64,000 bases of DNA from Colwellia sp. (lineage in GTDB: Bacteria; Pseudomonadota; Gammaproteobacteria; Enterobacterales; Alteromonadaceae), in the NCBI GenBank assembly GCA_013215465.1, contig JABSOW010000006.1:141425-205424 (forward strand). The letters are read 5' to 3'. How positions within the stretch are numbered: the stretch's first letter is position 1; every line of letters starts with the position of its first letter. The notes beneath the pieces are model-generated. The model saw nothing but the letters and a program-made list of their open reading frames with translations, had not been told where the DNA came from and ran no database searches. A program made the translations under genes and the position numbers. Of the stretch, positions 1,776-38,803 are shown one piece after another.

Positions 1776-4104
1776 TATTAATTACAAATTTTTAAACGTC
1801 TCTGAGATGGAAGAAATATCTGATAGTTTTACAGACCAGGTAACTGAAAACGCAAAAGAATTAGAGTTAATTGTATCTGATGAAAAACTATCTATCGATG
1901 GCACAATACTAAAGTATCACTCAGTTGTTGAATCTACGAGACAAGAAGGTTCTATAGATTTAGCGAATATATGGCTTCCAGGTGCGCCCGGATGGGAACA
2001 TCCTGTCCCACTGTTATTATATCCAAACCTCTCGAAAGCTATAATAGAAGTGGTAGACAAGTATGCGTGTAATGCATCCCATACGCCTACTTTTGCTAAA
2101 ACAGGGTTGCCGTCCCAATTCAATGTAGCATCACAATTTGTCGAATGGGCGTGCTTAAATGGTCACTTTCAATTGCAAGAAATTAGCAAAAAACGATTTA
2201 TTGAATTTAATAATAAAATCAGCGAGGGTGGAATTAATACAATATTAGATCTCCCAACCCGGATAGATCAATTTATTGACAATTTAATTGTAAACGATGA
2301 GCTAGATTCATTTTTAATTAAAGATGGTGACACTGAAAATTCAGCAGTAACAAGCTTAAGAGTATCCCTAATAGCAAAGAGCATTGGTTCCGTCAGCTTA
2401 GAGAACCAAGTTTCGAATGATTTATATAAAAAAGTCTATGAGTATTTACAATCTAACGACATAAAAGTAAATAAAAAATTTGCAAATAAAGGAGGTGTCT
2501 TTCCAACTCAAGCATCAGAAAGCTCGCTGGGTAATTGGTTTAGCACTTGGAATCGATTTGCAAACATAGATAATTCAGATCATTTACCTTTTGTCCCTTT
2601 TCCAAAGCCAAGCTACCTTGCAAAAAAGCTAGGGAAAGTTTCGAGCAGAACTAACAATTTGGAAATTGAGCATGTCATTAAACTTCTTGGTACTTCTCAC
2701 AAATGGTTATATGAATATTCACCAAAAATAATTTCGATTGTGAAGGATATTAAGAAGGAAAAAGATAGGTTACTCAAAGATGGTGCAAACACTAGATATA
2801 TTGCTGAGACACTTATTCCTCAGTTTATTGAACAATCGGCCAAGGTAAAAAAGTTAGAAAAGCAGCTTTCAATTAACATCCATAAAACTAGTTTAACTTC
2901 ATCAAAAAATACTGATGAGGATCTTTCTATTACAGAAATCATCACGCTGTTAATGTCGGCTTGCTATTTAATACTTCAAACTTATAACGCAAGAAGACAA
3001 GCTGAAATACAAGATCCGCGTATCGGGGTTCAAGAAGAATACTTCCGTTGTAAAAGCAAAAAATATAATTGGTATCAGGCTTGTTTTTATAATGAAAAGC
3101 ACGGAGAAAGAAGGTGGTACACCTTAAACAATGGTAGTGCCAAAGCTTTGAAGTGCTTGATAGATCTAAAAAACGCTTGGGAAGGGGAAAATGCAGAAGG
3201 TTTATTTAATGTTCCTACATTTAGGCTTACAGAGGAAGGAAATTTCAAACATTACAAATACCATTTCAACAAAGGGAAAGGATCAAAAATTACTGGCAAT
3301 GCCTTTTTAAAAATGGCAATAGGTGATGCCAGCAATGACATCGGTAGTCACATGTTTCGAAGAATTTACGCGATTATCTATCATTATCAGTACAAGAATG
3401 CAGACTTGCTCGCATTATGCTTCCAGATGGGGCATGTCGATCCGACTCAAACAATGATATATGTTACCGACCCTAACTCTCGTGAATTACACGAGCAACT
3501 TCATCATAAAGTTAAATTAACAAAAAATGAAAATGCCGAATCGACTATAGCAATAAAAGAAGAAAATAAAGCATTAGATAAAGTCATTGATGAAGTAGGT
3601 GTTGAAACCACCTCAAAAGACCTATTAAACCTTATGATGGGCACTGAGAAAATGGCCGGAAAATATACTTCATACCTTAAAAAAGTTTATCGAGTGTTAC
3701 AACGTAGTGTTAAATTTGGATCTTACATCGATAAAAAATATGGGCATAATTTCAATAAGCTAAGTCAGAAGGAACAAAGCGACGAAATGGCAAACGTTCT
3801 GCATAAGAAAGGTCATAAACATAACCCAAAACCTCATGCTACATGCCATAAGAAGAGTGGCGATATTAAGATAAAAAAAGCCCCATGCGAGCCTCTAAAA
3901 TGTAAGGGATGTCCATATCAAGAGGTTAGAAGTATTCAATTGAAGATAATGACAGATGATCTACTTGATTTAAAAAAGCAACAATCTGACTTTAGATCTT
4001 TACCGATTCAAAAGCTTAGAGCTAAAGAGCAAGTTAAAAAATTAACTAGCCTAATTGAAAACTACCAACGCTCCATGGCTAAAAGCCAAGCAATATTCAA
4101 CTAG
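1765..4104 (+). CDS. Large tyrosine recombinase/integrase with C-terminal Cys cluster (candidate GMT integrase)
   Basis: C-terminal motif 'SHMFRRIYAIIYHYQYKNADLLALCFQMGHVDPTQTMIYVTD' (HxxR...GH...Y); Cys-rich tail 'CHKKSGDIKIKKAPCEPLKCKGCPYQ'; overlaps upstream ORF by 11 nt. Confidence 0.75.
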   Translation: MPTNINYKFLNVSEMEEISDSFTDQVTENAKELELIVSDEKLSIDGTILKYHSVVESTRQEGSIDLANIWLPGAPGWEHPVPLLLYPNLSKAIIEVVDKYACNASHTPTFAKTGLPSQFNVASQFVEWACLNGHFQLQEISKKRFIEFNNKISEGGINTILDLPTRIDQFIDNLIVNDELDSFLIKDGDTENSAVTSLRVSLIAKSIGSVSLENQVSNDLYKKVYEYLQSNDIKVNKKFANKGGVFPTQASESSLGNWFSTWNRFANIDNSDHLPFVPFPKPSYLAKKLGKVSSRTNNLEIEHVIKLLGTSHKWLYEYSPKIISIVKDIKKEKDRLLKDGANTRYIAETLIPQFIEQSAKVKKLEKQLSINIHKTSLTSSKNTDEDLSITEIITLLMSACYLILQTYNARRQAEIQDPRIGVQEEYFRCKSKKYNWYQACFYNEKHGERRWYTLNNGSAKALKCLIDLKNAWEGENAEGLFNVPTFRLTEEGNFKHYKYHFNKGKGSKITGNAFLKMAIGDASNDIGSHMFRRIYAIIYHYQYKNADLLALCFQMGHVDPTQTMIYVTDPNSRELHEQLHHKVKLTKNENAESTIAIKEENKALDKVIDEVGVETTSKDLLNLMMGTEKMAGKYTSYLKKVYRVLQRSVKFGSYIDKKYGHNFNKLSQKEQSDEMANVLHKKGHKHNPKPHATCHKKSGDIKIKKAPCEPLKCKGCPYQEVRSIQLKIMTDDLLDLKKQQSDFRSLPIQKLRAKEQVKKLTSLIENYQRSMAKSQAIFN

Positions 4105-4115
4105 AGGTTTTTGTA

Positions 4116-4835
4116 ATGACTAATAATAAATCAAGTACTGAACCTCAACGTGAAGAAGCATTCAAACGTCTTGAACAGAAAATATCCATATTAGAAGATT
4201 GGATTAAAGATGGTATTCCTTTCGAGCTTAAAGGTGGAAATAAACAAATAAATAAAAAAGAGAAAATCGTTCTTGAGTTTTTCCCTACCAGTATTAGCGC
4301 TTTAAGAGGCTGGAACGGTAGCAAAAATAGTAAAGATGCCGTAAAGAGATACAAAATTCCGAAATATCAAACTTCAGCAGGTGTATGGAAGGCAGCTCCT
4401 AAGCGCATAACTAATCGCGTCGAGAATGAAGGTGAGTCTGAATCTTTATTCGAATGTTTGAAACTCAAAGCTAAATTTCAAAGTGATAACAAGAATAAAA
4501 GCAAGATTAAAGAATTAGAAGAGTTACTCGCGATAAGCCAGATGAATCACAAAGGGCTAGCTGATGAGTTGATTCAACTTCGGCTGGACAATATTTATTT
4601 AACCGAAGAACTGCATACTTCTGAAAATGTAATTAAAGGTACAAAGTCCACTATAAAAACACAATTCAAATGGAAAGATGAACTATTAAAACAAGCACAT
4701 AATAAAACCTCTCAACTTAAAATAGAGAATGGCAAACTCAAAAAAATTCTAGCTGAACATGAAATTTCATACGATGTCGATCCTGTTGAACCGTCAATAA
4801 TTAATTTTCCAGGTAAAGTAAATCGTGACAAATAA
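4116..4835 (+). CDS. Conserved mobility-module protein with coiled-coil C-terminus (candidate GmtX-like)
   Basis: ORF of 239 aa directly after the integrase with an 11-nt gap; heptad-rich C-terminal half. Confidence 0.5.
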   Translation: MTNNKSSTEPQREEAFKRLEQKISILEDWIKDGIPFELKGGNKQINKKEKIVLEFFPTSISALRGWNGSKNSKDAVKRYKIPKYQTSAGVWKAAPKRITNRVENEGESESLFECLKLKAKFQSDNKNKSKIKELEELLAISQMNHKGLADELIQLRLDNIYLTEELHTSENVIKGTKSTIKTQFKWKDELLKQAHNKTSQLKIENGKLKKILAEHEISYDVDPVEPSIINFPGKVNRDK

Positions 4836-5265
4836 AATTAAGACACCTTCTCAGGAAGTTGGAAAATTGAGTGTTAAGAAATTAGAGGATTGGTTAAAGA
4901 CATCACCTGAAATCCCTATTCATAATCGAAAAATGAATAAGACAAAAATTTGTCGTATGCATGGCATTACTAAATCAACTATAGACTCTAATTCAGGTCT
5001 TGAAAGGTTATTTTCTGATGATGGACCGATTGCACTGCTTGTTCAGGAGCAGCTAAACAACACGATACATAGACAAGAAACTTCAGCTAATGAAACAGCA
5101 TCAGAAGGTAATGATACTGTCCTACCGACTGAAGAATTAACTCAAAAAATTGATGAGTTAAAACAAACAATTGACTCTATTCATTTGGACTTAGCTTCTG
5201 AAGAGTATTTAACTTCTACAGGCCGTTATATTCCTAAGCTTTATTTAAAAACGATTGAAGATTAG
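4825..5265 (+). CDS. Small hypothetical protein of the mobility operon
   Basis: 146 aa, overlaps preceding ORF by 11 nt; followed 12 nt later by the helicase gene. Confidence 0.5.
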   Translation: MTNKIKTPSQEVGKLSVKKLEDWLKTSPEIPIHNRKMNKTKICRMHGITKSTIDSNSGLERLFSDDGPIALLVQEQLNNTIHRQETSANETASEGNDTVLPTEELTQKIDELKQTIDSIHLDLASEEYLTSTGRYIPKLYLKTIED

Positions 5266-5277
5266 CGTGATGTTAAA

Positions 5278-7506
5278 ATGAAAATACAAAACATATCATT
5301 TGATGACGAAGTAAAAAAACTTTCGGGGATTGTTACTCATATTATCCATGTAGCCCATGATAATCGTGGTGTTTCTGCTATTTTTCGGCTCAAACGTGAA
5401 AAAAGCAAGTTTCAAGCTGTCGCTGAGTTTGGAACAATTAATTCACACCCTAGAATTGGAGATATTTGGGAACTAGCAGGAGAACATAAAACAGATGAAA
5501 AATACGGCTCTCAATTTTCAGTTTTTCATGCAAAAAAAGTTAATCCTAGTTCTTCAACACCATTACCCATAATGCTTGATTACCTTGCTTATAATACTAA
5601 TTTTGTTGGTATTGATACGTATTGGGCATCCAAATTAAAGAAAAAATTTCGCGATTCATTATTTGATGGTCTGAATAAAGCTGATGTTCACACACTTATT
5701 TCTGATAAAAAATTAAAGATGCCAAAAATTAAGGCTCAATCTTTAATTGATGGATGGAGAAAAAACACTTACGAAGATAGGCTAGTTGATTTTTTATCGA
5801 GCAATAAATTACCTACCTCTCTATCAGGGAACATAATTCACTACCTCGGTTATAATGCTATTGAGTTAATTACTGATAACCCTTATCTGCTGTGTCTGTT
5901 GATGCCAGTAGAGTCTGTTTCAAAGACATGGAAAAAATTAGACAAAATAATTACTAAAAATTTTAACATTGCGAGTAATAATAAAAAAAGAGCGGTTTCT
6001 TTTGTTGAGTCAGTTTTATATAACGCATTTGATGTGAATGGACATATGGCGCTACCAATAGAGCATGTGCAAAGTGCTTTAAAGGATGTAGATATAAAAT
6101 TAGATTTGGATAAGCTCAATAGGGATACCGGGCCATTTAAAACCCTACACGTAAATAAAAAGAACAATACCGTACAAATACTCGGTCATCATGTAATAGA
6201 AAAAACAATTTCTTCGTTATTAAATAAACGACTTTATTTTAACTCAGGTAAAGTATTAGATAGAGTTGATGATTTTATTTCTAGTTATATAGAAAATAAT
6301 AATATTCAATTAAATCCGGAACAAAATATCGCCATAGTTAATGCGTTAACAAAAAACCTATCTGTTATTCATGGAAAAGCATTTACTGGAAAATCTACTG
6401 TTGTTAATGCCATCATTGATAATATGTTAAAACATAACGAAAGGTTTTGGTTGATATCCCCTTCATTTAGCAATGAAGCTAATTCTCTATCTGGTGGTGT
6501 GCATGCTGAATCAATCCATAGATTTATTTCAAAGGCCCATAAAAGGAACTTAAAACAACTTCTTTCAAATTCTGTTGTTATTATCGATGAAGCACAATCA
6601 ATTGATATGTTAACTCTTTATAAGCTGCTTAAAGTGGTTCCTATCAATTCCAAAGTTTGCTTTATTGGTGATAAATATAAACTTTCCCCGATTGGGCCAG
6701 GTAACTTTTTTACGCAAATTTCAACTATTCAGAATAACGTAATAACCGAGCTAGTAAAAAAGTATTCTATTGAAGAAAACAATGAATTTAGTCATTTAAA
6801 CGCATTGTTATTTTCTCAAGGTACTGTATCAAATTTAGATATAAATCATTTTGAAATCGAAACACATGCTGTTGTTAGTATTTATGATATACCTGATAGA
6901 GATCACGCTACTCTAAGTAATATAACAGCAAACATTTGGTTTGAAGTTGATCAGTTACGAAAGCACAGCACACAGATCATATGCACCAGTAATCCTGTTC
7001 GTGAGTTAATAAATACACAAATTCAGCAAGTTAAATATCATAAGCAAGACTTTGACAAAATTAAGGTAGAAGATAAAGAATTTTATCTAGGTGATGCTGT
7101 TATATTCAATAAAGCTGATCAATATTTAGGTGTTAGCAATGGCACGATGGGCGTTGTAAATGAGGTGTTCAAAAGTCCTCAGTTATTCGGTGGTAGAGAA
7201 TGTTTACTCAGTGTTGAAATTGAAGGAAATGCAATAGCATTAACTAAATCAGATATTGAAAATATTAACCTTTCCTATGCTATTACAGCTTATAAAATTC
7301 AGGGACATCGATTTAAGAATACAATTATTCTTGTCGATAACCATTTTTTAATTAATAGGTCATGGCTATATACGGTAATCAACTCTACTGAACAGTCTTT
7401 AATTTTTATTGGTGATAGAGCTTCTTTAACCGCATCATTCAATGAAATAGACACTGATTTACAACGATATTTTGGTACTCCAATTACTTTAGTGGGTGAA
7501 CAATGA
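5278..7506 (+). CDS. RecD/TraA-like superfamily 1B DNA helicase
   Basis: Walker A 'HGKAFTGKSTVVNAI', Walker B 'VVIIDEAQSIDM', 'FIGDKYKLSPIGPG', C-terminal 'LSYAITAYKIQGHRFKNTIILV' (UvrD_C_2-like). Confidence 0.85.
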   Translation: MKIQNISFDDEVKKLSGIVTHIIHVAHDNRGVSAIFRLKREKSKFQAVAEFGTINSHPRIGDIWELAGEHKTDEKYGSQFSVFHAKKVNPSSSTPLPIMLDYLAYNTNFVGIDTYWASKLKKKFRDSLFDGLNKADVHTLISDKKLKMPKIKAQSLIDGWRKNTYEDRLVDFLSSNKLPTSLSGNIIHYLGYNAIELITDNPYLLCLLMPVESVSKTWKKLDKIITKNFNIASNNKKRAVSFVESVLYNAFDVNGHMALPIEHVQSALKDVDIKLDLDKLNRDTGPFKTLHVNKKNNTVQILGHHVIEKTISSLLNKRLYFNSGKVLDRVDDFISSYIENNNIQLNPEQNIAIVNALTKNLSVIHGKAFTGKSTVVNAIIDNMLKHNERFWLISPSFSNEANSLSGGVHAESIHRFISKAHKRNLKQLLSNSVVIIDEAQSIDMLTLYKLLKVVPINSKVCFIGDKYKLSPIGPGNFFTQISTIQNNVITELVKKYSIEENNEFSHLNALLFSQGTVSNLDINHFEIETHAVVSIYDIPDRDHATLSNITANIWFEVDQLRKHSTQIICTSNPVRELINTQIQQVKYHKQDFDKIKVEDKEFYLGDAVIFNKADQYLGVSNGTMGVVNEVFKSPQLFGGRECLLSVEIEGNAIALTKSDIENINLSYAITAYKIQGHRFKNTIILVDNHFLINRSWLYTVINSTEQSLIFIGDRASLTASFNEIDTDLQRYFGTPITLVGEQ

Positions 7507-8852
7507 ATAAAGAAATTTTAGAAACCAAAGTAAAATATGATCGGAAAGAGTATTACGTTTACCAAGATGTGAATGGTGAAGTGCTGTGGGCACCTATCGA
7601 TTTTCTCATTGAAGAAGATAAAGATAAAAATATAAGCACCATATCAACTTATAGAAAAGCAATTAGAAGGCTATTCAAATATATAAACACAAGAGAAAAG
7701 GATCTCACTTGGCTAGAAATTAACGATTACCATATTGAAAAATTTAGAGATTGGTGCCTTGAAGAAACTAAAGCAGATCCTCGTCATCGGGGTAGTGATA
7801 ATACCGCAAAACAGACAGTAAACCATGATTTTTTGATGCCAATTTATGCATTTTATTTTTGGGTACAAAAGCAAGGAAAATATCACCCGAACATCTTAGG
7901 GTTGAATACTGAGAAGAAGTACTCTTATCAGATAACTTCTGCGCTTTTGCAAAAAGAAATGGCTATTTCTAAGAATGAGAAGCCTAATAATACTCTTCTT
8001 TATCCAAAGTTATTTAAAGATTGTGATAAGAAAAGCCGAAAACAAGAATCAGCGGACGAATATGACTGGAATGAACTAATTAATCACATTATTAATAATT
8101 ACCGTGGCTATGAAAGAGCCTCTCTTCTACTTATTTTAAAAATAATAAATGATACTGGTGGAAGACCAATTTCAATAAGTAGTCTTTTACGTATTCAGTT
8201 TACTAAAGAAGCCACAAATAAGATCTTTTTTGATAATAAAAAATCTACATTTGATGTTGTTCCCGCAAAGGCAAAACAAGGGAATACGATGCCTATAAAA
8301 TTTCCATATACCATATGTAGTGCGATTCAAACATTTATTGAGGATGAACTAAACCCATTTGTCGATAGAAATAACCTTTCATCCTACGATGGACATTTAT
8401 TTATAAGTCCAAGAAATTTTACTCCACTAAGTGCTGCTAATATTATCAAAATATTTAGTGAAATAACGACAGAATTAGAATGGCCGAAAGGAAAATCTAT
8501 TTATTCTTTTAGACATAAATTTGCACAAGAAAGCCACGATAAAAACTTGGAAATAGCCATTGAGCAAGGTTTTTCTGCCGATGAACCCTCTGTTGCATTG
8601 AAAACGCAAAATGATATGACTCATAAAGCGAAGGGGTCTCTTGATAGCTACGTTGATGATAGAGTGAGAATGGGAAAAGATACCGAAGCTAATAAAAGAG
8701 AACTTAGAATTAAGGAATTAGAATCAGATAAAACACGCTTGGCATTAGAAACTCAAAAATCAATGGAATTAGCTGAAGAGCAACACAAACTAAATGAAGA
8801 AATGGCTATAGAAATAGCACGATTGAAAAAAGAACTAGCACAAAAAAAGTAA
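7503..8852 (+). CDS. Tyrosine recombinase/phage-type integrase with C-terminal coiled coil
   Basis: 'TGGRPISISSLLRIQF' and 'IYSFRHKFAQESHDKN...MTHKAKGSLDSYVDD' (R..HxxR..Y pattern); start overlaps helicase stop by 4 nt (ATGA). Confidence 0.7.
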   Translation: MNKEILETKVKYDRKEYYVYQDVNGEVLWAPIDFLIEEDKDKNISTISTYRKAIRRLFKYINTREKDLTWLEINDYHIEKFRDWCLEETKADPRHRGSDNTAKQTVNHDFLMPIYAFYFWVQKQGKYHPNILGLNTEKKYSYQITSALLQKEMAISKNEKPNNTLLYPKLFKDCDKKSRKQESADEYDWNELINHIINNYRGYERASLLLILKIINDTGGRPISISSLLRIQFTKEATNKIFFDNKKSTFDVVPAKAKQGNTMPIKFPYTICSAIQTFIEDELNPFVDRNNLSSYDGHLFISPRNFTPLSAANIIKIFSEITTELEWPKGKSIYSFRHKFAQESHDKNLEIAIEQGFSADEPSVALKTQNDMTHKAKGSLDSYVDDRVRMGKDTEANKRELRIKELESDKTRLALETQKSMELAEEQHKLNEEMAIEIARLKKELAQKK

Positions 8853-12352: not shown

Positions 12353-13010
12353 AGTGGTTGTTTAAACTAACTTATACCAATAAATTAATATTGGTTTATA
12401 TAAAATAACAGACTATAGTCCTACTTAATTAACAAGAGGAAAACTTATGAAAGATGTAAAAAAAGAAAAAAAGAAATTGGTCGAAAAAACAATTTTTACA
12501 CCAGATAAAAATAGTACGACTATAAAAACTCATCAAAAAGAAGGCAGTAATATTATTCCGTACATTACTAAATTACTTGAAAAATTATTATCTTCAGGTA
12601 AAGAACAAGTACACGATATTTGTTTTTTTATGCTTAATACTGGCTTTCGTTTTACTGAAATAATAGATATCAAATTTTCTGACATTGACTTTACCACGGC
12701 TACATTAAAAATCGGAGTAGCTAAAAGTAGTCTACCCAAAGAAGAAAAAGTTAACATAAAGCTAAATCATAAATCTTTAACACTATTAGCAAAAATTCGC
12801 GATCAATATCCAAACAATACGTGGGTATTTCAAGCAAAAAATAGTAATAAAATAAATAAAAAGCCTCGGAGTTTGAGCCGACAGGTTGTGATTAATACAA
12901 TTAAGCAAGCTAATCAGTATTTGGAGCAGAAGCTAAGTTTCCCCCTGTGTCAGGATTGTTGTCGCCTCAATTAATTTTATAAATAAACAGAGGGCGGTAA
13001 GTTTAAGTTA

Positions 13011-13511
13011 GTGGATTATCAAAGGTATTCAAGTCAATTTAAAGAAGCAATATTAAACAAGCTTAGTCAAAGTGGCTTATCAGTCAGAAAGTTTGCAGAG
13101 CAAGAAGGCATTAATATTTCAACAATGTATAGTTGGCAAAAGCAATTTAATACCTCAGGTTTAAACGTGTCAAAAGTAAGTTCATCAGATAAATGGTCAA
13201 GTGAGGAAAAGTTTGCAGTTGTATTGGAAACCGCAACACTGTCGGCAGTTGAGTTAAGTGAGTATTGTCGAGTTAAAGGTTTATATCCTGAGCAAATAAA
13301 AGCATGGAAACAAGCCTGTATCGCAGGCAACACAGCTACTAAGCAGGTAAAAAGAGCAAAGACTACGCCAGAGCAAAAGTCTGACAAAAGTCGTATTAAA
13401 GAGTTAGAGCGTGAACTGCGCAGAAAAGAAAAAGCCTTAGCAGAAACAGCGGCATTGCTTGTATTAGGAAAAAAGTTCGATGCCTATTGGAAGGAAAAAG
13501 AGGGCAGCTAA
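13011..13511 (+). CDS. IS3-family transposase OrfA
   Basis: HTH 'MDYQRYSSQFKEAILNKLSQSGLSVRKFAEQEGINISTMYSWQKQF'. Confidence 0.9.
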   Translation: MDYQRYSSQFKEAILNKLSQSGLSVRKFAEQEGINISTMYSWQKQFNTSGLNVSKVSSSDKWSSEEKFAVVLETATLSAVELSEYCRVKGLYPEQIKAWKQACIAGNTATKQVKRAKTTPEQKSDKSRIKELERELRRKEKALAETAALLVLGKKFDAYWKEKEGS

Positions 13512-14551
13512 TTTCGCTGACCGATAGGCAAAATCATGCACAGTTGGTCGGCACAGCCGTAGCGTCGGGTGCGAGGCAAGATAAGGCCTGTGAAGTGATT
13601 GGTTTCTCAACAAGAACTTTACAGCGTTGGCGAATAGATGGGGAAATTGGCGCAGATAAAAGGCCAACAGCAACTAGATCTGAGCCTGGGAACAAACTGA
13701 GTAAAGCTGAAAGACGAGCAGTGATTGATGTTTGTAACAGCGAAGAGTTTGCCTCATTACCGCCAAGCCAGATTGTACCGATACTCGCCGATAGAGGTGA
13801 ATATATCGCCTCTGAGTCGAGTTTTTACCGCCTATTAAACGCTGAAAACATGTTGCATCACCGAGGTAAAGCTAAGCCGCGAAATATCCATAAAAAGCCA
13901 ACAAGTTATACGGCTAAAAAAGCGAAGGAAGTGTGGAGTTGGGATATCAGCTACATGCCTACAACCGTGATAGGCAAACACTATTACCTGTATATGATTG
14001 AAGATATTTACAGCCGTAAAGTAGTGGGCTGGGAAGTTCACTACAACGAAACAGGTGAGCAAGCGGCAGCACTACTAGAGCGTAGTGTTTGGGCAGAGAA
14101 ATGCTTGAAGAAAAACTTAGTATTGCACTCTGATAATGGAGCACCTATGAAGAGTCTGACGATGCGAGCTAAGATGTACGATTTAGGTGTTGTTACCTCA
14201 CGCAGTCGCCCCAGGGTAAGTAACGATAATCCGTACTCAGAATCACTGTTTAGAACGGTAAAGTATCATCCTCGTTGGCCTAGTGAAGGTTTCAAATCGT
14301 TAGATGAAGCCAGAAAATGGGTAAAAGAATTTGTTTATTGGTACAACAATGAGCATCGTCATAGCAGGATAAAATTTGTAACACCGAGCCAGAGACACGA
14401 TGGTCTTGATGTTGGGATACTGGCGAAGCGAAAAGAGTTATATCAGACAAAAAGAAATGAGCATCCTGAGCGATGGTCAAAAGAAGAAAGAAACTGGCAG
14501 CCAATAGGTGTTGTGGAGTTAAATCCAGAGCAACATAAAGAAGCTGCTTAA
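13487..14551 (+). CDS. IS3-family transposase OrfB (DDE integrase)
   Basis: 'VWSWDISYMPT...YLYMIEDIYSRKVVGWEVH...LHSDNGAPMKS...SRPRVSNDNPYSESLFRTVKY...YNNEHRHSRIKFVTPSQRH'. It lies in the -1 frame relative to OrfA with a 25-nt overlap and an A-rich stretch (aaggaaaaagag). Confidence 0.93.
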   Translation: MEGKRGQLISLTDRQNHAQLVGTAVASGARQDKACEVIGFSTRTLQRWRIDGEIGADKRPTATRSEPGNKLSKAERRAVIDVCNSEEFASLPPSQIVPILADRGEYIASESSFYRLLNAENMLHHRGKAKPRNIHKKPTSYTAKKAKEVWSWDISYMPTTVIGKHYYLYMIEDIYSRKVVGWEVHYNETGEQAAALLERSVWAEKCLKKNLVLHSDNGAPMKSLTMRAKMYDLGVVTSRSRPRVSNDNPYSESLFRTVKYHPRWPSEGFKSLDEARKWVKEFVYWYNNEHRHSRIKFVTPSQRHDGLDVGILAKRKELYQTKRNEHPERWSKEERNWQPIGVVELNPEQHKEAA

Positions 14552-15191: not shown

Positions 15192-16073
15192 TTAATTAAG
15201 CTTATATCCCGGTGCTAATAACATTGTTTCAATAGTCGAATCAATTTTTTCTGGATATTTTAATGCTAGTTGATATTCCATCCCTTTAAGGGAGTAATCT
15301 GTACTGCAATCAACATTCCAACGCCTCAGTACATACCCTAAATTAGCTTTTCTTAGCGATATTAATCTGCTACCACAAGTCATTCCATAATCGATCTCTA
15401 TAGTTTCTTTGTTTAAAATATTAGGATGTGGAATTAATTCAATTTCAATAAATTCGTTCCAATACTTATCGTTACTCGAAAGTTCATGTTCCAAGGCAAA
15501 ATCTATTGTCATTTTAGCTTTTTCAATGCGAGTAACAACGAAATCTGTAAACCGTTCACGTTTTCTATCCCACGCTCTTACATGCCATCTTAGCCCTGTA
15601 TCAACCAGAGAAAAGGGAATTATTTCTCTGGTTGTTTTTCCACTACTCACTGAATTATAAGTTATCTCAACTACTCTATTTAATTTCATAGCCCTAGTTA
15701 AAATAGATACGATTTTTATGTCTGGCTGATTCAATTGATGTGGCGTATCACATTGTAACCCTGATACTTCATAACCCTTTAATCCGTCCCCAAACCCCTC
15801 TGCCAAGGTAGATAACACTCTATTAGTTGAATATTCAAATATAGGTTTAAATTTTTCTGCTGGAACGTAACATCTATTTCTAGTGTCATATTGTAAATTA
15901 TTTGGAGCCAAATCATTGTACTTGGTAAAGTCTCTTGTTGCGGCAGCATCCTTTATGCCAAACCTTGTAATCAAGTCCTTTCTTCCTGCGCTTCCAAAAA
16001 AATAAGCCTTAAATTCAATATGGGCAAGCCGTTCTTTTTGAATTTTTGTTAGCTCTTGAATTAACTTATTCAT
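15192..16073 (-). CDS. WYL-domain transcriptional regulator, BrxR/CapW-like
   Basis: N-terminal wHTH-like 'FGSAGRKDLITRFGIKDAAATRDFTKYNDLAPNNLQYD', then WYL-like 'RVVEITYNSVSSGKTTREIIPFSLVDTGLRWHVRAWDRKRERFTDFVVTRI'; divergent from a defence-like operon. Confidence 0.85.
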   Translation of the reverse strand: MNKLIQELTKIQKERLAHIEFKAYFFGSAGRKDLITRFGIKDAAATRDFTKYNDLAPNNLQYDTRNRCYVPAEKFKPIFEYSTNRVLSTLAEGFGDGLKGYEVSGLQCDTPHQLNQPDIKIVSILTRAMKLNRVVEITYNSVSSGKTTREIIPFSLVDTGLRWHVRAWDRKRERFTDFVVTRIEKAKMTIDFALEHELSSNDKYWNEFIEIELIPHPNILNKETIEIDYGMTCGSRLISLRKANLGYVLRRWNVDCSTDYSLKGMEYQLALKYPEKIDSTIETMLLAPGYKLN

Positions 16074-16132
16074 TATTTAATTCCAAATTTGTATCAATGA
16101 ATTAAATATAGACCATACAATTGATTTAGTAA

Positions 16133-16172
16133 ATACATTTGGTTGACATCATCAAATGTATGATGGTAAAAT
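16133..16172. promoter_or_regulatory. Operator/promoter between WYL regulator and MBL operon
   Basis: Inverted repeat ATACATTTG (16133-16141)-N11-CAAATGTAT (16153-16161) overlapping TTGACA (16143-16148) and TAAAAT (16167-16172) with 18-bp spacing. Confidence 0.6.
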
Positions 16173-16262
16173 TTAACCTTAATTAAGGTAGGGATATATA
16201 GGTGTTTTGCTGTTGCCTTTTATTCATAATTTTTAAAATTAATTATTTTAGAGGTAAATAGC

Positions 16263-17414
16263 GTGACAGATTCAATACCAAACAAAGGCGTTACTTTTTG
16301 GCCTGTAGGGAATGGAGACTCAACAACAATCTCAATTTCTGAACAAGTAAAAATTCAAATAGATTTACATCATATGGTTGCTGCTGAAGATGATGATGAA
16401 GAATATTATCCAGTAGTAGATCATCTTACCGAAGGTTTACCAAAAATAGATGGTACACCTTATTTATCTGTATTTGCGCTAACTCACCCTGACAAGGATC
16501 ATATTCAAGGTTTTGATAAACTTCTTGAACAAGCAACTATTGGTGAGTTGTGGTTAACACCCAGAATTTTTATTGATGAAGAATTATCTAAAGAAGCTGA
16601 AGATTTTTTTAATGAAGCTGACAGAAGACTTAAGTTGGCCATAAAAAATAATGGGCAACTAGAATCAGGTGATCGTATAAGAATTTTTGGTTACAACACT
16701 ATATTAGATGATAAAAAGTTTAATGGATTTCCAGAAGAACTCTTAACATTACCCGGTGATGAACTTTCCTTAGTAGATGGAAAAGATATGAGTGGTGAAT
16801 TCAGTGCGTTTATACATTCCCCATTTAAAGCTGAAGAGGAAGAAGATCGAAATGACAGTAGTCTCGGTATGCAAATTACTCTTGGAGACGAAGAAGACAA
16901 TATTAAAGTCCTTATTTTCGGTGACCTTGCCCATGAAGGCTTGAGAAAATTAATTGATATATCTAAAGCTAATGATAATGAAGATAAGCTTGAATGGAAT
17001 ATATTGTTAGCCCCTCATCATTGTTCAAAGTCAATTATGTATACCAAAGATGAGAATGATAACAATGTGTTTCAACAAGAGATGATGGATGATCTAGCAA
17101 ACTACTGTCTTGATACAGGTTATATTATAAGTAGTTCTAAATCTGTGCCATCTTCGAACAAAAAAGGTGATAATCCTCCTCATGTCATCGCTAAAGATCG
17201 ATACGAGGAAATAGTTTCAAATGACTTTTTATGTACACATAATGAAGAATCTGAAGACGCAGAGCCAATTGTATTTGAAAAAACAGATGATGGCCTTAGT
17301 TTAAATGGCGAACATATAAGCAATACAAGTTGCAAAGATCTTGGTGCAAGTATTAGTGAAGCAAGGAGTAGTGGTACACCACCAACTAATACTGCCGGAT
17401 TTGGAGTGTTATAA
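16263..17414 (+). CDS. Metallo-beta-lactamase-fold protein (ComEC-type MBL domain)
   Basis: 'GVTFWPVGNGDSTTISI...IDLHH', 'ALTHPDKDHIQGF' (HxxxDH), 'LIFGDLAHEG', 'LLAPHHCSKS'. Start GTG 16263. Flexible C-tail '...SGTPPTNTAGFGVL'. Confidence 0.85.
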   Translation: MTDSIPNKGVTFWPVGNGDSTTISISEQVKIQIDLHHMVAAEDDDEEYYPVVDHLTEGLPKIDGTPYLSVFALTHPDKDHIQGFDKLLEQATIGELWLTPRIFIDEELSKEAEDFFNEADRRLKLAIKNNGQLESGDRIRIFGYNTILDDKKFNGFPEELLTLPGDELSLVDGKDMSGEFSAFIHSPFKAEEEEDRNDSSLGMQITLGDEEDNIKVLIFGDLAHEGLRKLIDISKANDNEDKLEWNILLAPHHCSKSIMYTKDENDNNVFQQEMMDDLANYCLDTGYIISSSKSVPSSNKKGDNPPHVIAKDRYEEIVSNDFLCTHNEESEDAEPIVFEKTDDGLSLNGEHISNTSCKDLGASISEARSSGTPPTNTAGFGVL

Positions 17415-17415
17415 C

Positions 17416-19755
17416 TTGCACTCCAGCGGACAAGACAAAGCTATAGCTCAACTTAAACGAATAGAAAGTGCTTCAGATACAGGCTTTAGAGTTGTTAAAG
17501 TCTATGCTCAAACTGAAGATAGCTCGTATTTGTTTATTTTAGTTGAAATTAATTGCTCTAATATTAAATCATCTACTGATGGGTTGCAGTTAAAGAGCAG
17601 GGAAAAGTTTGTTCTTCGAGTTCGAGACAACTTCCCTTTTTCATATCCGACAGTATATGTAAGTCACAATAGGTTTAATGGGTTTTCTCATGTCCAATGG
17701 GTTAGACATTTATGTTTATATTTATCACCATTAACAGAATGGAATATTAGTGATGGCATGTATGGCTATATTGAACGATTACATCAATGGTTAGTTAGAG
17801 GGGCAAAAAATAGTCATGAGCTAGATGGACAACCATTGCATCCACCTGCTGTTTATCCAGGCAGTAAAGATTTACCTAGTGTGATAATTAGAAATGACAC
17901 GCCTTCATTTGAAGGACCTTTCTGGCTAGGTTTTGCTGTTATGGAAAATATAAACGAAAAGAGGGTTGATCTAGTCGGTTGGCAACAAGGTCTTCAAAAA
18001 CCTGTTTCTGGTTTTTTATCACCTGTAATTCTACTAAGTGAAAACTTTCCTTTTGAATACCCTAATAAAGCTGAAGATCTTTTTAAACAAATAGAACTAT
18101 TAGGTGTAAAAACTGAAACAGTTCATGCATTGTCTTTATTCTCTTCTCTAGTAAATAATAATGAAACGCCACTGTATTTAATTGTTGGTTCGCCAATGAG
18201 AGGTATAAAGCATCAAAAAACATTTCAACACTTATCAGTTTGGTCAATAGATGAACTAACTAAAAATGCGATTGGAATGGAAATTCAATGTGCTGATTTA
18301 TTAACAAAAAAGGTTGACGATGAGTTCACTGCCAATGTTAAAAAATTAAGTATTGAGTGTAAAGAGCAATCGATGTCAGCACTAAAATCAGCAGATATGA
18401 GATGGTGCTCAGTTCAAGAAGATAGGAGCGAAGTGACAATAAGAAGAGATAATAATACTTCGGCTAATGCTTATTCTAATAAGGCCATCGCCTTATGGGG
18501 ATGTGGAGCTTTAGGTAGTTATATTGCAGAAATATTGGTACGTTCAGGGGCAACACACCTTATATTAAGAGATAATAAAAAAGTAACCCCCGGAATATTA
18601 GTTAGGCAAAACTATGAAGATGCTGATATTGGAAATTGGAAATGCGATAGTCTGAAAAACAGACTTCTTCGTATAAACCCCAAAGTTACTATCGAAACTG
18701 ATAATGATGATATATCTAGTTCATTCAATACATTAGCTGAATTAAGTGAAGATGAGAGCAATCCATATGATCTTATTATTGATGCAACAGCTTCTAATTT
18801 TGTTCACCTATCTTTAGAAGAATATTTGAAAGGGGTTACTCCAAACGTTGCTTTAGCCTCTGTAATCATTGGAGCTAAAGCAAGTAGTGCTCTATTTAGT
18901 TATTTTCCTTCTGTAAAAAGTGGTGCAATTTCAGATGCTTTGAGAAAGTCTAAAATTAAAGCATTAAAAACGAAAAACATGGGGAATTACGCTAAAGAAT
19001 TTTGGCCCAATCAAGCCGACTTCTTAAATTTTCAGCCAGAGCCGGGCTGTTCAGACCCTACTTTTATAGGATCATCAATAGATATGATGATCCTAGTCGG
19101 GAGAGTAATGGATTTATTAGGTAAATCATTAGTTTCAGCTAAATCGTCATCTACTCATATGCTGTCTAAAAATCCATCAGAAGATAAAGATTTTTTCTTA
19201 GAACATTCCGAAGATTTAATAGTAGATTTACCTGATAATTATCAGGTTAGATTTGATCGTAAAGTTATAAAAGATATATATAAAGTCATTTCAAAATCCA
19301 AAAGAAGTGGTAAAAAAGTTTGTGAAACTGGAGGGCTTTTGTTTGGACAAATCGATCATGCAAGTGAAATTGTTTGGATTACCGAGATAATGGGACCTCC
19401 TAAAGATAGTATATCTCTTCCCGAAAAATTTGTTTGTGGCACGAAAGGTACTAAAGAGTTTAATTCTCAATCCTCTATAAAAACTCAAGGCTCAGTGCAT
19501 TATATTGGAATGTGGCATACACACCCCGTAAGTTCAGCAGTACCGAGCTTTATAGATATGCAGGGTATGGCTGGGATAATGTGTAATGACGGTTTTGCTG
19601 CTGAATCTCAAATGCTATTAATTATTGGTCATAGCAGCAAAAACCCAGAATTTGGTATTTATCAGTTTTCAACATCTGATATTCAATCAATTAATAGTGG
19701 AGAATTAGAAATGAAATTTAAACATAACGGAACAATAGTAAAGGAGAAAAAGTAA
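17416..19755 (+). CDS. E2-E1(ThiF)-JAB fusion protein (bacterial ubiquitin-like conjugation/deconjugation enzyme)
   Basis: E2-like N-terminus ('FPFSYPTVYVSHNRFNGFSHVQWVRHLCLYLSPLTEWN'), E1 adenylation domain ('IALWGCGALGSYIAEILVRSGATHLILRDNKKV'), JAB/MPN ('GGLLFGQID...IGMWHTHPVSSAVPSFID', with HxH...D). Likely TTG start at 17416 with SD-like GGAG at 17403-17406; the ORF-track start at 17341 is inside the MBL gene. Confidence 0.85.
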   Translation: MHSSGQDKAIAQLKRIESASDTGFRVVKVYAQTEDSSYLFILVEINCSNIKSSTDGLQLKSREKFVLRVRDNFPFSYPTVYVSHNRFNGFSHVQWVRHLCLYLSPLTEWNISDGMYGYIERLHQWLVRGAKNSHELDGQPLHPPAVYPGSKDLPSVIIRNDTPSFEGPFWLGFAVMENINEKRVDLVGWQQGLQKPVSGFLSPVILLSENFPFEYPNKAEDLFKQIELLGVKTETVHALSLFSSLVNNNETPLYLIVGSPMRGIKHQKTFQHLSVWSIDELTKNAIGMEIQCADLLTKKVDDEFTANVKKLSIECKEQSMSALKSADMRWCSVQEDRSEVTIRRDNNTSANAYSNKAIALWGCGALGSYIAEILVRSGATHLILRDNKKVTPGILVRQNYEDADIGNWKCDSLKNRLLRINPKVTIETDNDDISSSFNTLAELSEDESNPYDLIIDATASNFVHLSLEEYLKGVTPNVALASVIIGAKASSALFSYFPSVKSGAISDALRKSKIKALKTKNMGNYAKEFWPNQADFLNFQPEPGCSDPTFIGSSIDMMILVGRVMDLLGKSLVSAKSSSTHMLSKNPSEDKDFFLEHSEDLIVDLPDNYQVRFDRKVIKDIYKVISKSKRSGKKVCETGGLLFGQIDHASEIVWITEIMGPPKDSISLPEKFVCGTKGTKEFNSQSSIKTQGSVHYIGMWHTHPVSSAVPSFIDMQGMAGIMCNDGFAAESQMLLIIGHSSKNPEFGIYQFSTSDIQSINSGELEMKFKHNGTIVKEKK

Positions 19756-20465
19756 TGAAATTTGATACGTATACCCTAAAGGGCAGAATAGTTCCTGCTT
19801 TCTTTTCAATAATAATTCCAATAATGATCTTTAATCACTTTTATACCAGTGAAGAATTTTCAAAATTTGTTGGAGAGGTTATGGGAGCAAAATTGGTATC
19901 CAATTTAACAATCTCATCTATTTGCTTAATTTTTCTTTCTCAATTTGGGAGAGTTCTTGGTAAAAATGTATTTGAAAAGAATATTTTTAAAGAAGAGAGG
20001 TTCATGCCAACAACTAATTTTTTGCTGTTTTCTGATGATACATATAGTGATCAACATAAATTAAAAATTCGCGACAAAATGGCGACTGATTTTAAATCAA
20101 CAATACCTTCTAAAGAGGAAGAAGCTAATGATATCAATCAGTCAAGAATGATAATTGTAGAGTTAATGGCTTTAGTTAGAAGCAAACTGAAAGGAAATAC
20201 ATTTCTTTTGCAGCACAATATTGAGTATGGAGCTATGAGGAATGTGATTGGTGGTTCTATTCTTGGTGTCCTCTTATCTATTGGGAATATTATTTTTTTC
20301 AAGTATGCGATGGTAAATGAACTAGCTGTGAATATTAGTATTGTGACTTTAATTGTTTATGGATTACTCATAGTTTTGAGTAAAATTTTAATTGAATTTT
20401 ACGGAAAAAGTTACGCAAAAATTTTATTTCGTGAATATTTATCTTTGGACTCAAAAAGTAAATAG
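19755..20465 (+). CDS. Membrane protein (predicted 3-4 TM helices) in the MBL/E2-E1-JAB operon
   Basis: Hydrophobic segments 'IVPAFFSIIIPIMIF', 'LTISSICLIFLSQF', 'NVIGGSILGVLLSIGNIIFF', 'LAVNISIVTLIVYGLLIVLS'; ATG overlaps the upstream stop (taatg). Confidence 0.75.
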   Translation: MKFDTYTLKGRIVPAFFSIIIPIMIFNHFYTSEEFSKFVGEVMGAKLVSNLTISSICLIFLSQFGRVLGKNVFEKNIFKEERFMPTTNFLLFSDDTYSDQHKLKIRDKMATDFKSTIPSKEEEANDINQSRMIIVELMALVRSKLKGNTFLLQHNIEYGAMRNVIGGSILGVLLSIGNIIFFKYAMVNELAVNISIVTLIVYGLLIVLSKILIEFYGKSYAKILFREYLSLDSKSK

Positions 20466-25374: not shown

Positions 25375-26109
25375 TTATTTTCGAGATGATAAAAGTGTCA
25401 CTAAATTATGGCTTAATCTATCTAAAACAGATTGTGTTTCCATGTCCCATTGCTGATTTAAATACTCGATGACTAGATTGACGTTTGAAGGGAATAGTAC
25501 TTTTCCGTCTACCTTAGCAAACGGCCCATCAGTTTCGAGTAACACCCTATCCTGAGGTAACCAAGAAATAATTTTCTTTCCTCTTGATGATTGCAACATT
25601 GCTGGCCCTATAGAAAAGTAGCAACCTAACTCAGCAGCCTTAAATACTTGTTTTTTAGTTGCCAAGAACCAGTGCAAAATAGGGGTTCCAGATTTTGGGA
25701 ACTGGTTCAAACAATCTAAGATTTGCTCTACTGCATTTAAACTATGAATTGTTAGTATTTTATCGTCGAATTCTTCACATTTATTTAATATATGCTTAAA
25801 AACGGATAATTGAACATCCAAGTGTTCCTTATATCCACTAGAGCCATCAAGACCTATTTCACCAATATATCTAGTTTGATCAACTAACTTATCAAATAAT
25901 ACAAGCTCATTTTCTCTTTGATGCGCTAACTGAGGATGTAAGCCTAATGCTGTTTTGCAATGATTTAAGCCTTCAGTTAACTTAACAGTACCTTCCCAAG
26001 CAGAAGGTACTGTCGTAACAGATAGAACATAGTAATTTGATTGCCTTATATCATTCAATATCTCTTGATGATTAGGATATAAATCAACATGGCAATGCAT
26101 GTCCATCAT
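25375..26109 (-). CDS. qatD: QatD, TatD-family metal-dependent hydrolase of the Qat anti-phage system
   Basis: 'MMDMHCHVDLYPN', 'YIGEIGLDGS', 'ILHWFL', 'LLETDGPF' (TatD motifs); last gene of the qat operon. Confidence 0.92.
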   Translation of the reverse strand: MMDMHCHVDLYPNHQEILNDIRQSNYYVLSVTTVPSAWEGTVKLTEGLNHCKTALGLHPQLAHQRENELVLFDKLVDQTRYIGEIGLDGSSGYKEHLDVQLSVFKHILNKCEEFDDKILTIHSLNAVEQILDCLNQFPKSGTPILHWFLATKKQVFKAAELGCYFSIGPAMLQSSRGKKIISWLPQDRVLLETDGPFAKVDGKVLFPSNVNLVIEYLNQQWDMETQSVLDRLSHNLVTLLSSRK

Positions 26110-27461
26110 TATGTTTTTTCCGACTTCAGAAATATTTCAACTTCTTTTAAGCCACGCTCTATTGTTGATTCTAATTGATTTCTGATCGTAATATCTTCTG
26201 GGATCGGACCGCTTTGTCGCAACCATGACTTATAATTTTTTGCTTTATTTTGTCTGATAATCGCAGTAGATAAGGCTTGAAGATCATCACGAGTATCTTT
26301 CTCTTTCATTAAGCCCTTAAGTCTTTTAGTTTTGTACGGGGCATCCACCGTAAACCCGGAATGATGCACAGAAGCTCTTCGAATTATACAAGGAACACAA
26401 TGTCCACACTGCTTATTTTCACGATGCCAATGACTACATGAAACGCTTAAGGGTATAGCTTTTTCTATTGCTTTTTGATCAACACACTCAGCTAACATTT
26501 CACCTTTTGTTTTAAATTGATATGGATTGACGAATTTCACATGAAATCCAGCATCTTTAAGGAGTCCTTCCAATCGACTTAGAAAATGAGGATGCGTTGT
26601 GCGAGTGCTATGACTGCCAATTCGTCTTCTCGTTAATGGTGGATTTATTGATATATAGCCATTTTCCGGCACGATGATTGTAGAAATATCAGAGTCATTA
26701 TTAGCACTTCTTAATGCTGAAATACCAAGTACAGACATAGCGAGAAAGTTAAAACTTCGTCCGCGCATTGTTACATCAGTTTTATCTTTTAATCGATCAA
26801 TAAGATGAGGAGATATAGAATAAGATAATTCGCCAAATGGCGGGGTTAATAATGTTTTAATTTTTTCTTGTTTAGCACCATCACCTCGGTAAGCATGACT
26901 TACTAATAATGGTTTATAATCCGACTTTCCATTAAGTATGTCTATTGCACCTACCGCACTATCTAAGCCACCAGAAAATAAACAAATAGCATTTAAACCT
27001 TTCAGGCTCCTAGCTTTTGCTTTGGCTTTGTCACTTTTTTTAGGTTTTGGCATTCGCATCTTTGTTTTTATAAATGTGAACATCCATTGGTCACCTGTCA
27101 AAAAATTCAAAATTGAACTTAATTCTTCAGCCAAAAAACCCCACATATTTACATTGGATACAGGAACGTGTAAGTGCATTTGTCTAGCCCAAGCGTTTGC
27201 GGCTTTATCTCTCAATTCAAAGGTGTCCGCTGCGGTAACTGCTGTTGCAATGGTAAGTAAGTCAATGGCATCACCATCAACATAAACACCAAGATCACGC
27301 ACAGTGTCCATTAAAGCTCTAGAAGCCAAACTGTTTTTACTACTGTCATATTGATGAGTATTATAAATTTGAACTGGATGACAGCCTTCTGAAAATTCAG
27401 GTAATTTAGCCGGATCGTTATTAAAATAAAAATTAGTCATCGAAACTCTCCCACTCGTCAA
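26109..27461 (-). CDS. qatC: QatC, QueC-like enzyme of the Qat anti-phage system
   Basis: PP-loop 'AICLFSGGLDSAVGAIDIL'; 'CGHCVPCIIRRASVHHSGF'. Start probably 27440 (MTNFYFNND). Confidence 0.92.
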   Translation of the reverse strand: MTSGRVSMTNFYFNNDPAKLPEFSEGCHPVQIYNTHQYDSSKNSLASRALMDTVRDLGVYVDGDAIDLLTIATAVTAADTFELRDKAANAWARQMHLHVPVSNVNMWGFLAEELSSILNFLTGDQWMFTFIKTKMRMPKPKKSDKAKAKARSLKGLNAICLFSGGLDSAVGAIDILNGKSDYKPLLVSHAYRGDGAKQEKIKTLLTPPFGELSYSISPHLIDRLKDKTDVTMRGRSFNFLAMSVLGISALRSANNDSDISTIIVPENGYISINPPLTRRRIGSHSTRTTHPHFLSRLEGLLKDAGFHVKFVNPYQFKTKGEMLAECVDQKAIEKAIPLSVSCSHWHRENKQCGHCVPCIIRRASVHHSGFTVDAPYKTKRLKGLMKEKDTRDDLQALSTAIIRQNKAKNYKSWLRQSGPIPEDITIRNQLESTIERGLKEVEIFLKSEKT

Positions 27462-28317
27462 CAGTCATTGAAATTGCATCTATTTGAATTTTTGTAATAT
27501 TGTCTCTGGTGATATTACTTGGGTTTCCATTAGTCACGATATCCATTTGCTCTTGTGCAATCACTTTTATTAATTCCCTTAATTCTTCTTCCATTCTGTG
27601 ATGTTTGCTTGGAGGTTCAACATGAAACCAAGCTCTACCCATTCCTGTAACGACATCCTGAAATATGAGATCGGTTAAATAGCATGAAATAGTTTCTTGT
27701 ATAACTTCATCAGTAAAGCTTTCAGGTTCGAAATCATTAGTATCAGGTAACGCTTCTTCTAAAGCATAATCGAGTGCTATTCGAATAGCATCGGCATCAG
27801 CATTATCAGGCGCTAGGTGAGATGCAATTTTATCAATTGCTTGATCTGTCGTTAGACCTTTCAAATCTCCAAGTGATAATTTTTGGTGATTTACTGTAAC
27901 GCTATCACCGCGCATAATACCAAGTAACCCTGTACCAGCGGTAATACCACTTGCTAACCTTCTACTTGTCCCTTTACCTCCACCTGACGACTTCTTAGCA
28001 TAGCTTTTTAATGATTTTCTTAAATTGGATGTAGTGCCGCCTGACTGAGCATACTTTCCAAACGCTAATCTGGCACTAGCAAATCGATTAGGCTGAGCTG
28101 GTATATGGGCAGGGCCAGGAATTTCACTTTGAACCTGAGCATTATCTATTTCGTTACTATCATTATCTTGTGAGCCATCGGCATCACTTTGATCTGTATT
28201 AATATCCCCATCACTACCTGATGAAGGCTCTATTGTTATTGTGTCGCCTTGTTCTGCCCATGGCGGAACAAGTGGACTTTGGTTATTTGGACCAAGAGAT
28301 GAAGCCGAAGTACCCAT
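27433..28317 (-). CDS. qatB: QatB of the Qat anti-phage system
   Basis: 'MGTSASSLGPNNQSPLVPPWAEQ' N-terminus typical of QatB; between QatA and QatC with overlapping junctions. Confidence 0.9.
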   Translation of the reverse strand: MGTSASSLGPNNQSPLVPPWAEQGDTITIEPSSGSDGDINTDQSDADGSQDNDSNEIDNAQVQSEIPGPAHIPAQPNRFASARLAFGKYAQSGGTTSNLRKSLKSYAKKSSGGGKGTSRRLASGITAGTGLLGIMRGDSVTVNHQKLSLGDLKGLTTDQAIDKIASHLAPDNADADAIRIALDYALEEALPDTNDFEPESFTDEVIQETISCYLTDLIFQDVVTGMGRAWFHVEPPSKHHRMEEELRELIKVIAQEQMDIVTNGNPSNITRDNITKIQIDAISMTVDEWESFDD

Positions 28318-37978: not shown

Positions 37979-38803
37979 ATGTCAAATCTTAAAACTCAGA
38001 GACAAGAAGAAAGACTCAAATACATCGATTTATGTGCTTATGTCATGGGATTCGTTAATAGAAAAATATTAATGAATCGCTTTGATGTAAAAGAAGCTTG
38101 GGCAACAAACGATTTCAAAACCTATCAAGTTAGATCTAATGAAGGGTTAATATATGACCATGGACTGAAAGCCTATAAACCCATTGATTCATTCATACCA
38201 ATTTTCAAACATGAGTCATCTACTGCAATTCAACTTCTCAGCAATGGTAGTCAAACAATAGTTTGCGAACCTAGTTTTGCAAGTAAATCATATAGTTGTA
38301 TAATTCCTACTGTTGTACTAAAACTCAATACCATTTATCCTATTCTTAGAGCGATCAGTTTAAATAAACAAGTTGAAATAGAGTATTTTTCACGTTCAAC
38401 GGGAAAAACCAAAAGAAAATTATCACCACACTCATTAATAAAGACTGGTTGTTTCGTTTACGTCAGAGCATTCGATCATAAAGAAGATGAACACAGAACA
38501 TTCAAGCTTAGTCGTGTATTCACTGCTCAATTTGTAAACCAAAAGCCTGAGGCGCATGAAACTATTGAAATGGATAATGACTGGAACACACAGGTAAAGT
38601 TAACAATTGGAATCAATAGCAACGGTATTGAAAAAGAAACAATCAAATTTGACTATGGCTTTGAATCTGATTCAATAGAAATAGAATTAAAAAAAGCTAT
38701 CGTTCCTTTCTTTCTAATGGATTGGAACATTGCACCTATTAATTATCCTAAATTACCAGTAACGCTTTTCCCGTTAAAAGAAATAAACAATCAGGATGTA
38801 TAG
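37979..38803 (+). CDS. WYL-domain transcriptional regulator, BrxR/CapW-like (second copy type)
   Basis: 'CAYVMGFVNRKILMNRFDVKEAWATNDFKTYQVRSNEGLIYDHGLKAYKP...KQVEIEYFSRSTGKTKRKLSPHSLIKTGCFVYVRAFDHKEDEHRTFKLSRV', same architecture as 15192-16073. Confidence 0.85.
   Translation: MSNLKTQRQEERLKYIDLCAYVMGFVNRKILMNRFDVKEAWATNDFKTYQVRSNEGLIYDHGLKAYKPIDSFIPIFKHESSTAIQLLSNGSQTIVCEPSFASKSYSCIIPTVVLKLNTIYPILRAISLNKQVEIEYFSRSTGKTKRKLSPHSLIKTGCFVYVRAFDHKEDEHRTFKLSRVFTAQFVNQKPEAHETIEMDNDWNTQVKLTIGINSNGIEKETIKFDYGFESDSIEIELKKAIVPFFLMDWNIAPINYPKLPVTLFPLKEINNQDV

Follow-up and report, generated by a model that had tools for sequence, protein, structure and literature searches.

A locus at positions 15192-20465 of a 64,000-nucleotide stretch of Colwellia sp. 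DNA (GCA_013215465.1, contig JABSOW010000006.1, positions 141,425 to 205,424; hereafter the window, in whose numbering its features are given) probably encodes, at a rough probability of 0.6, a 6A-MBL abortive-infection system that would work like the cyclic-oligonucleotide-based antiphage signalling system (CBASS). A metallo-β-lactamase-fold (MBL) protein is predicted to replace the cGAS/DncV-like nucleotidyltransferase (CD-NTase) of CBASS both as sensor and as conjugated protein, with a membrane protein as the putative effector. Analysis of open reading frames and domains confirmed the four genes at the positions first noted, a WYL repressor gene diverging from a tight three-gene operon. The repressor is a CapW/BrxR-type transcriptional regulator of 293 amino acids (15192..16073, minus strand). 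The operon, on the plus strand, encodes the MBL-fold protein (383 amino acids, 16263..17414, with a GTG start at 16263), a fusion of E2, E1 and JAB domains of the Cap2-Cap3 type (E2-E1-JAB; 779 amino acids, 17416..19755) and the predicted effector, a four-helix membrane protein of 236 amino acids (19755..20465). The MBL and E2-E1-JAB genes are adjacent and co-directional, the stop of the one at 17414 being followed by the start of the other at 17416, and the start of the membrane-protein gene shares one base with the E2-E1-JAB stop. The mechanically called reading frame of E2-E1-JAB begins at 17341; its start was moved to the TTG codon at 17416, just after the MBL stop, because of the alignment with a Rhizobium homologue (MRSEGQ... 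versus LHSSGQ...).

The 6A-MBL core and the C-terminal tail of its MBL protein

Judged by profile matches (NCBIfam of June 2026, Pfam and the 2023 release of PADLOC), the core of this operon is the already named "anti-phage 6A-MBL system", because both of its proteins exceed the corresponding NCBIfam cut-offs: the MBL protein scores 289.8 bits against NF058524 ("6A-MBL_enzyme", curated cut-off 220) and E2-E1-JAB 326.1 bits against NF058523 ("6A-MBL_cap2_3"), barely over the cut-off of 320. The proposal of the initial annotation that this is a defence operon based on ubiquitin-like conjugation is supported. The idea that the combination has no name is not supported, and the core also corresponds to type 6a among the operons described by Iyer et al. 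in 2006, in which an E2-E1-JAB triple module stands beside an MBL gene, usually as two genes (PMC1779556). As in that type, the MBL gene here is followed by a single polypeptide with E2, E1 and JAB domains. In contrast, the NCBIfam models cover only the MBL protein and cap2_3, while here a membrane protein that is in no model follows; a named system thus accounts for two of the three genes, the kind of outcome that the initial annotation had set as counting against it. PADLOC of 2023 recognises domains only and finds the MBL protein weakly similar to LmuA and other defence MBLs. The effector slot, its association with patatin and the MBL tail described below are absent from Iyer et al. 2006 and from the NCBIfam models, though they may have been published elsewhere. 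The membrane-effector form, the slot and the tail may be additions to a known core, and their novelty is moderate.

The conjugation enzyme appears complete. Its Prok-E2_A (PF14457), ThiF (PF00899) and Prok-JAB (PF14464) domains are all above Pfam cut-offs. In 68-69 of 69 aligned relatives, E2 keeps its Cys and His, E1 its ATP motif and Cys, and JAB its E/HxH/S/D residues. In the window protein these are C101 and H93 for E2, G363xGxxG and C546 for E1, and E638, H702xH704, S712 and D715 for JAB. The MBL protein likewise retains the residues of its metal site (H75/D77/D79/H80/D221/H252), and the motifs THPDKDH, GD221 and HHCS are invariant or nearly so among 75 homologues.

The C-terminus of the MBL protein points to its role. 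In its last ~25 residues a variable linker precedes the motif P-x3-V-G-F-G, after which come 0-6 extra residues; the ending is PPTNTAGFG-VL in the window protein, where the glycine is Gly381 (linker and tail, approximately residues 363-383, are encoded at 17348..17411, plus strand). This glycine is invariant in all 44 members of a set of homologues made non-redundant at 70% identity; within at most seven residues of the end, G[FY]G occurs in 38 of them and [FYH]G in 43. The same searches on shuffled tails gave a mean of 0.24 and a maximum of 3, and found none at the ends of 54 E2-E1-JAB and 70 patatin proteins from the same loci, so that conservation by chance was rejected. Mean conservation is 0.32 in the linker (residues 341-365) against 0.56 in the tail (366-383), of which residues 377-383 are disordered in the AlphaFold model (pLDDT < 50). 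Overlap with the next gene was also considered as the cause of this conservation and rejected, because two loci (L063 and L155) keep the tail although their next gene begins past the MBL stop. In the other 6A-MBL clade the ends carry distinct motifs (PRAG, xHG and STYG), with the glycine 0-8 residues from the end. MBLs that are paired with the membrane-protein family in loci lacking E1, E2 and JAB have unrelated ends without a conserved glycine tail. For bacterial cGAS, conservation of the C-terminal Gly/Ala was found to be confined to operons that carry Cap2 and Cap3, and thioester formation and conjugation were then proven (PMC10097602). Because the glycine pattern of the MBL tail matches that which preceded the proof for cGAS, we consider it very probable that the MBL is the conjugated protein and that it is attached by its C-terminal tail. 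The extra residues after the glycine suggest that it would be made as a precursor and matured by JAB. Of the two roles first proposed for the MBL, effector or target, the tail favours that of target or modifier and leaves the effector role to the membrane protein, or to patatin in other operons.

The operon shares with type II CBASS its E1-E2 and JAB enzymes, predicted exchangeable membrane-attacking effectors, patatin phospholipases among them, and a partner protein whose C-terminal glycine is conserved beside Cap2/Cap3 (PMC10097602), a part that the MBL would fill here. It differs in that the MBL replaces the CD-NTase, that E2, E1 and JAB form one protein and that residues follow the glycine. 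Regarding the effector types of CBASS, the membrane protein of the window belongs to an unnamed family, and sister operons carry patatin. No CD-NTase was found among the open reading frames of the operon and no SMODS-family match in the whole genome, and a canonical type II CBASS was rejected for want of a CD-NTase. The Bil systems, which are ISG15-like, and the Bub systems carry ubiquitin-like modifiers. The operon contains no ubiquitin-like modifier gene, so that an assignment to Bil or Bub was rejected as well; the exclusion of canonical type II CBASS and of Bil agrees with the initial annotation. Bil and Bub are bacterial E1/E2/JAB conjugation systems, often under the control of CapW or of CapH and CapP (PMC13373217), and have in common with the present operon both the conjugation genes and the CapW-type control, but for the present operon we predict that the MBL is what becomes conjugated.

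The third-gene slot and the membrane-protein family

The slot after E2-E1-JAB appears to be an exchangeable effector slot. When the window-type MBL was used to scan 85,488 species genomes, 80 related loci emerged, in which this slot holds a patatin-like phospholipase gene in 42 cases, a patatin fusion in 23 (patatin at the C-terminus of E2-E1-JAB, giving proteins of 1129-1183 amino acids) and a member of the window's membrane family in three. Among the other 12, nine hit a contig edge, one (L044) carries another small membrane protein and two carry neither. Representative slot patatins are above the Pfam cut-off, and one of the 42 loci (L087) has its patatin gene placed upstream in divergent orientation. 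No operon was found that has both patatin and the window-type membrane protein as third gene; locus L096 combines a patatin-fused 6A-MBL operon with a separate MBL-membrane pair ~3 kb away. On a tree of 86 MBLs, some branches of which are long so that details are unsure, the membrane-protein state needs five changes, and because at least three of these fall on strongly supported branches, the effectors appear to have been exchanged repeatedly. Even the closest relatives of this operon differ from one another: a 74%-identical copy in a metagenome-assembled genome has the same membrane family, and a 76%-identical Vibrio copy has a different small membrane protein. Within the other 6A-MBL clade, the window's membrane family fills the slot in Emticicia, Nostoc, Sinorhizobium, Sphingobium, Methylocystis and Sagittula, and a second membrane family or patatin fills it elsewhere. 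The survey of gene neighbourhoods that had been proposed thus shows that the order recurs across phyla, which places it far from chance. The same genome holds a second 6A-MBL locus on contig C78 (L042:5571-10938), with the order MBL2 - membrane protein - MBL - E2-E1 - JAB; there E2-E1 and JAB are separate genes, and the membrane protein is related to that of the window.

The membrane protein itself is all-helical; its four hydrophobic helices are arranged 2+2 about a soluble middle of ~100 residues. It has no family match in Pfam, NCBIfam or PADLOC and none among PDB sequences. Structural matches to MotA/ExbB/TolQ-like folds were at best at E about 1 and were rejected as not significant, for which reason no stator-like or channel function is claimed. 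The family is nevertheless genuine, because an alignment of 25 members shows Y6, R11, P14, P22, R66, Y158-G159 and R162-N163 to be invariant or nearly so. At about 25 of 27 distinct loci its gene lies directly beside an MBL gene or in the same operon, and at 16 E2-E1-JAB is present too. As the membrane protein was itself the query in the searches that retrieved most of these loci, the linkage to MBL does not stem from the way they were found. Exceptions were L154, a decayed fragment, and L180, a Staphylococcus plasmid that carries an MBL fragment close by. Given the slot and this linkage, the membrane protein is probably the effector, and an action at the membrane, for which the initial annotation suggested a possible pore or anchor, is plausible; the same slot holds a patatin phospholipase in sister operons. 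Viral contigs, searched with a single-sequence query, gave no relative of the membrane protein (P0004), and phage records gave none of P0003 or of P0004.

Pairs of an MBL and a protein of this membrane family without E1, E2 or JAB are found in Bacillus, Rhodococcus, Microvirga, Runella, Acinetobacter and others. Such pairs (L034, L036, L143, L170, L172, L179, L181 and L183) span several phyla and are often near restriction or toxin-antitoxin genes. They resemble the operon in that the same membrane family adjoins an MBL gene; they differ from it by the lack of the conjugation enzymes and of the conserved glycine tail. We know of no established name for these two-gene pairs, which we regard as an unnamed candidate defence module. 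A second membrane family of ~220 amino acids, ending near RFVxNVLA and having the same 2+2 layout, occurs in or near the slot of other 6A-MBL operons (L147:4409-5089, L148:8823-9494, L152:4230-4874 and L166:6959-7594; mutual identity 31-43%). Profile comparison finds no homology between it and the family of the window. The small membrane protein of Vibrio (L044) and one of genome G698 may be remote relatives (hhalign E=4e-5, probability 70 percent), a relationship that we do not claim.

Proposed mechanism and competing explanations

The sequence of events that we propose would begin with the repressor, which, as inferred from its CapW/BrxR relatives, would hold the operon low until single-stranded DNA arising from infection or damage frees it. 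JAB would trim the terminal V-L of the MBL tail and expose Gly381, which E1 would adenylate and hand over, via its own Cys, to the E2 Cys; the residues required for this transfer are present. The MBL would then become attached either to a target or to itself, and JAB could also reverse the conjugation. Conjugated, or triggered by infection, the MBL would activate the membrane protein to which its gene is linked, either by contact or through a product of its metal site. Damage to the inner membrane by this protein, comparable to that expected of patatin in the sister operons, would kill the cell before phage release. At slightly less than even odds, the MBL-fold enzyme may itself be a ubiquitin-like modifier, a folded protein without a beta-grasp that would be made as a precursor with a few residues beyond a conserved glycine, matured by JAB, charged by E1-E2 and conjugated, and the conjugation unit may have been grafted onto an older and more widespread immune module of MBL and membrane effector that also works alone.

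Several observations weigh against this mechanism. On plasmids of E. coli and Klebsiella, many copies lack a third gene downstream, so that the effector is perhaps dispensable in some systems or the MBL itself is toxic. In these copies a membrane protein of 172 amino acids lies beside the WYL gene, a position held in Acinetobacter plasmids by the window's membrane family. Furthermore, most MBL homologues have 1-6 residues past the invariant glycine and conjugation would need processing, and structure comparison finds no solved relative of the membrane protein. The absence of an evident downstream effector in the two-gene copies of E. coli also fits the explanation that the MBL is the effector, a ComEC-related nuclease cutting phage or host DNA, with E2-E1-JAB as its regulator and the membrane protein as anchor or immunity partner. 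The closest solved fold to the AlphaFold model of the MBL is indeed the MBL domain of ComEC (E=2.1e-12), its metal-binding motifs are complete and PADLOC reports the weak resemblance to defence MBLs such as LmuA. However, what otherwise occupies the slot is either a membrane protein or a phospholipase, the latter being a classical killing effector; the two replace each other, and a nuclease would leave this slot unexplained. We therefore regard this explanation as unlikely.

It is improbable that the membrane protein derives from an independent MBL-membrane module and serves as conjugation target or membrane sensor instead of killing. The pairs without E1, E2 and JAB in Bacillus, Rhodococcus, Microvirga, Acinetobacter and others, together with the patatin-type operon and separate pair of L096, speak for such an origin, but at 16 loci the protein is in an E2-E1-JAB operon, mostly in the slot that patatin has in sister operons, and its conserved polar residues and 2+2 helices fit a regulated channel-like protein equally with a sensor. 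That the operon serves general stress or housekeeping protein modification is very improbable: related Bub operons have not been shown to defend against phage (PMC13373217), but NCBIfam calls the family anti-phage, and the patchy distribution, the occurrence on plasmids and the location in a defence island that also contains Drt5 and Qat genes argue against such a role.

Control, genomic surroundings and significance

The BrxR/CapW-like repressor diverging from the MBL, E2-E1-JAB and membrane-protein genes, recognised in the initial annotation, was corroborated by domain hits and by a match to PF13280 (E=1.1e-12). By phmmer it matches solved BrxR/CapW-type chains over its full length, including both the winged helix-turn-helix and the WYL domains (best 7qfz, E=3.2e-80; CapW 9c5g, E=3e-32). 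Between the repressor and MBL genes lies a candidate promoter, TTGACA-N18-TAAAAT with a TG preceding the -10 hexamer (16143..16172, plus strand), which is the best match in the region (11/12); weaker promoter-like sites there are not above chance in number. Its -35 box is overlapped by a candidate operator, the perfect 9-bp inverted repeat ATACATTTG-N11-CAAATGTAT (16133..16161, no strand assigned). CapW sites are palindromes of ~20 bp that cover the promoter -10 (PMC9122588). The likeness to CapW/BrxR control lies in the full-length sequence match, the divergent orientation of the gene and the putative palindromic operator over the candidate promoter, and the difference in that this palindrome overlaps the -35 instead of the -10. 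WYL control is uncommon among the relatives, being found at one of the 80 related loci. In Methylocystis (L175:1-932), genes for a helix-turn-helix protein and an ImmA/IrrE peptidase precede the operon, a control of the CapH and CapP type that replaces WYL.

An IS3-type transposase pair (13011-14551, plus strand) lies immediately upstream of the operon, preceded on our reading of the frames by an integrase fragment (12447-12974). The defence island opens with a cluster (18-8852, plus strand) of large proteins that match no family, together with a RecD2-like helicase and a tyrosine recombinase; its two largest proteins have no Pfam or NCBIfam match, and this cluster is possibly the mobile-element module of the island. 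On the other side, all on the minus strand unless stated, are a Qat-like operon (25375-30113) with QatA (PADLOC 667.8 bits), a QatB-like protein, QatC (385.8 bits) and a TatD nuclease; a divergent Wadjet-like cluster (30462-37898) with an MksE-like protein, an SMC-like ATPase that has no PADLOC match, a weak Toprim match and a small membrane protein; and the antiviral reverse transcriptase Drt5 (38853-40337; NF041750, 664 bits, above cut-off), with a second, divergent WYL-domain gene at 37979-38803 (plus strand). At 45231-47549, also on the minus strand, there is a Sll1717-family P-loop ATPase with an N-terminal extension of ~290 amino acids and weak similarity to anti-phage DS41_1.

If the proposed system is correct, the conjugation of an immune enzyme through its own C-terminal glycine would be a general design rather than a peculiarity of cGAS and CBASS, and a second enzyme fold, unrelated to cGAS, would stand in the same conjugated role. 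An orphan operon type of 2006 would gain a model with named residues, Gly381 of the MBL, C546 of E1, C101 of E2 and E638 of JAB. The new membrane family and the MBL-membrane module, which occur in Pseudomonadota, Bacteroidota, Cyanobacteriota, Actinomycetota and Bacillota, would provide candidate immune effectors outside the profile libraries searched.

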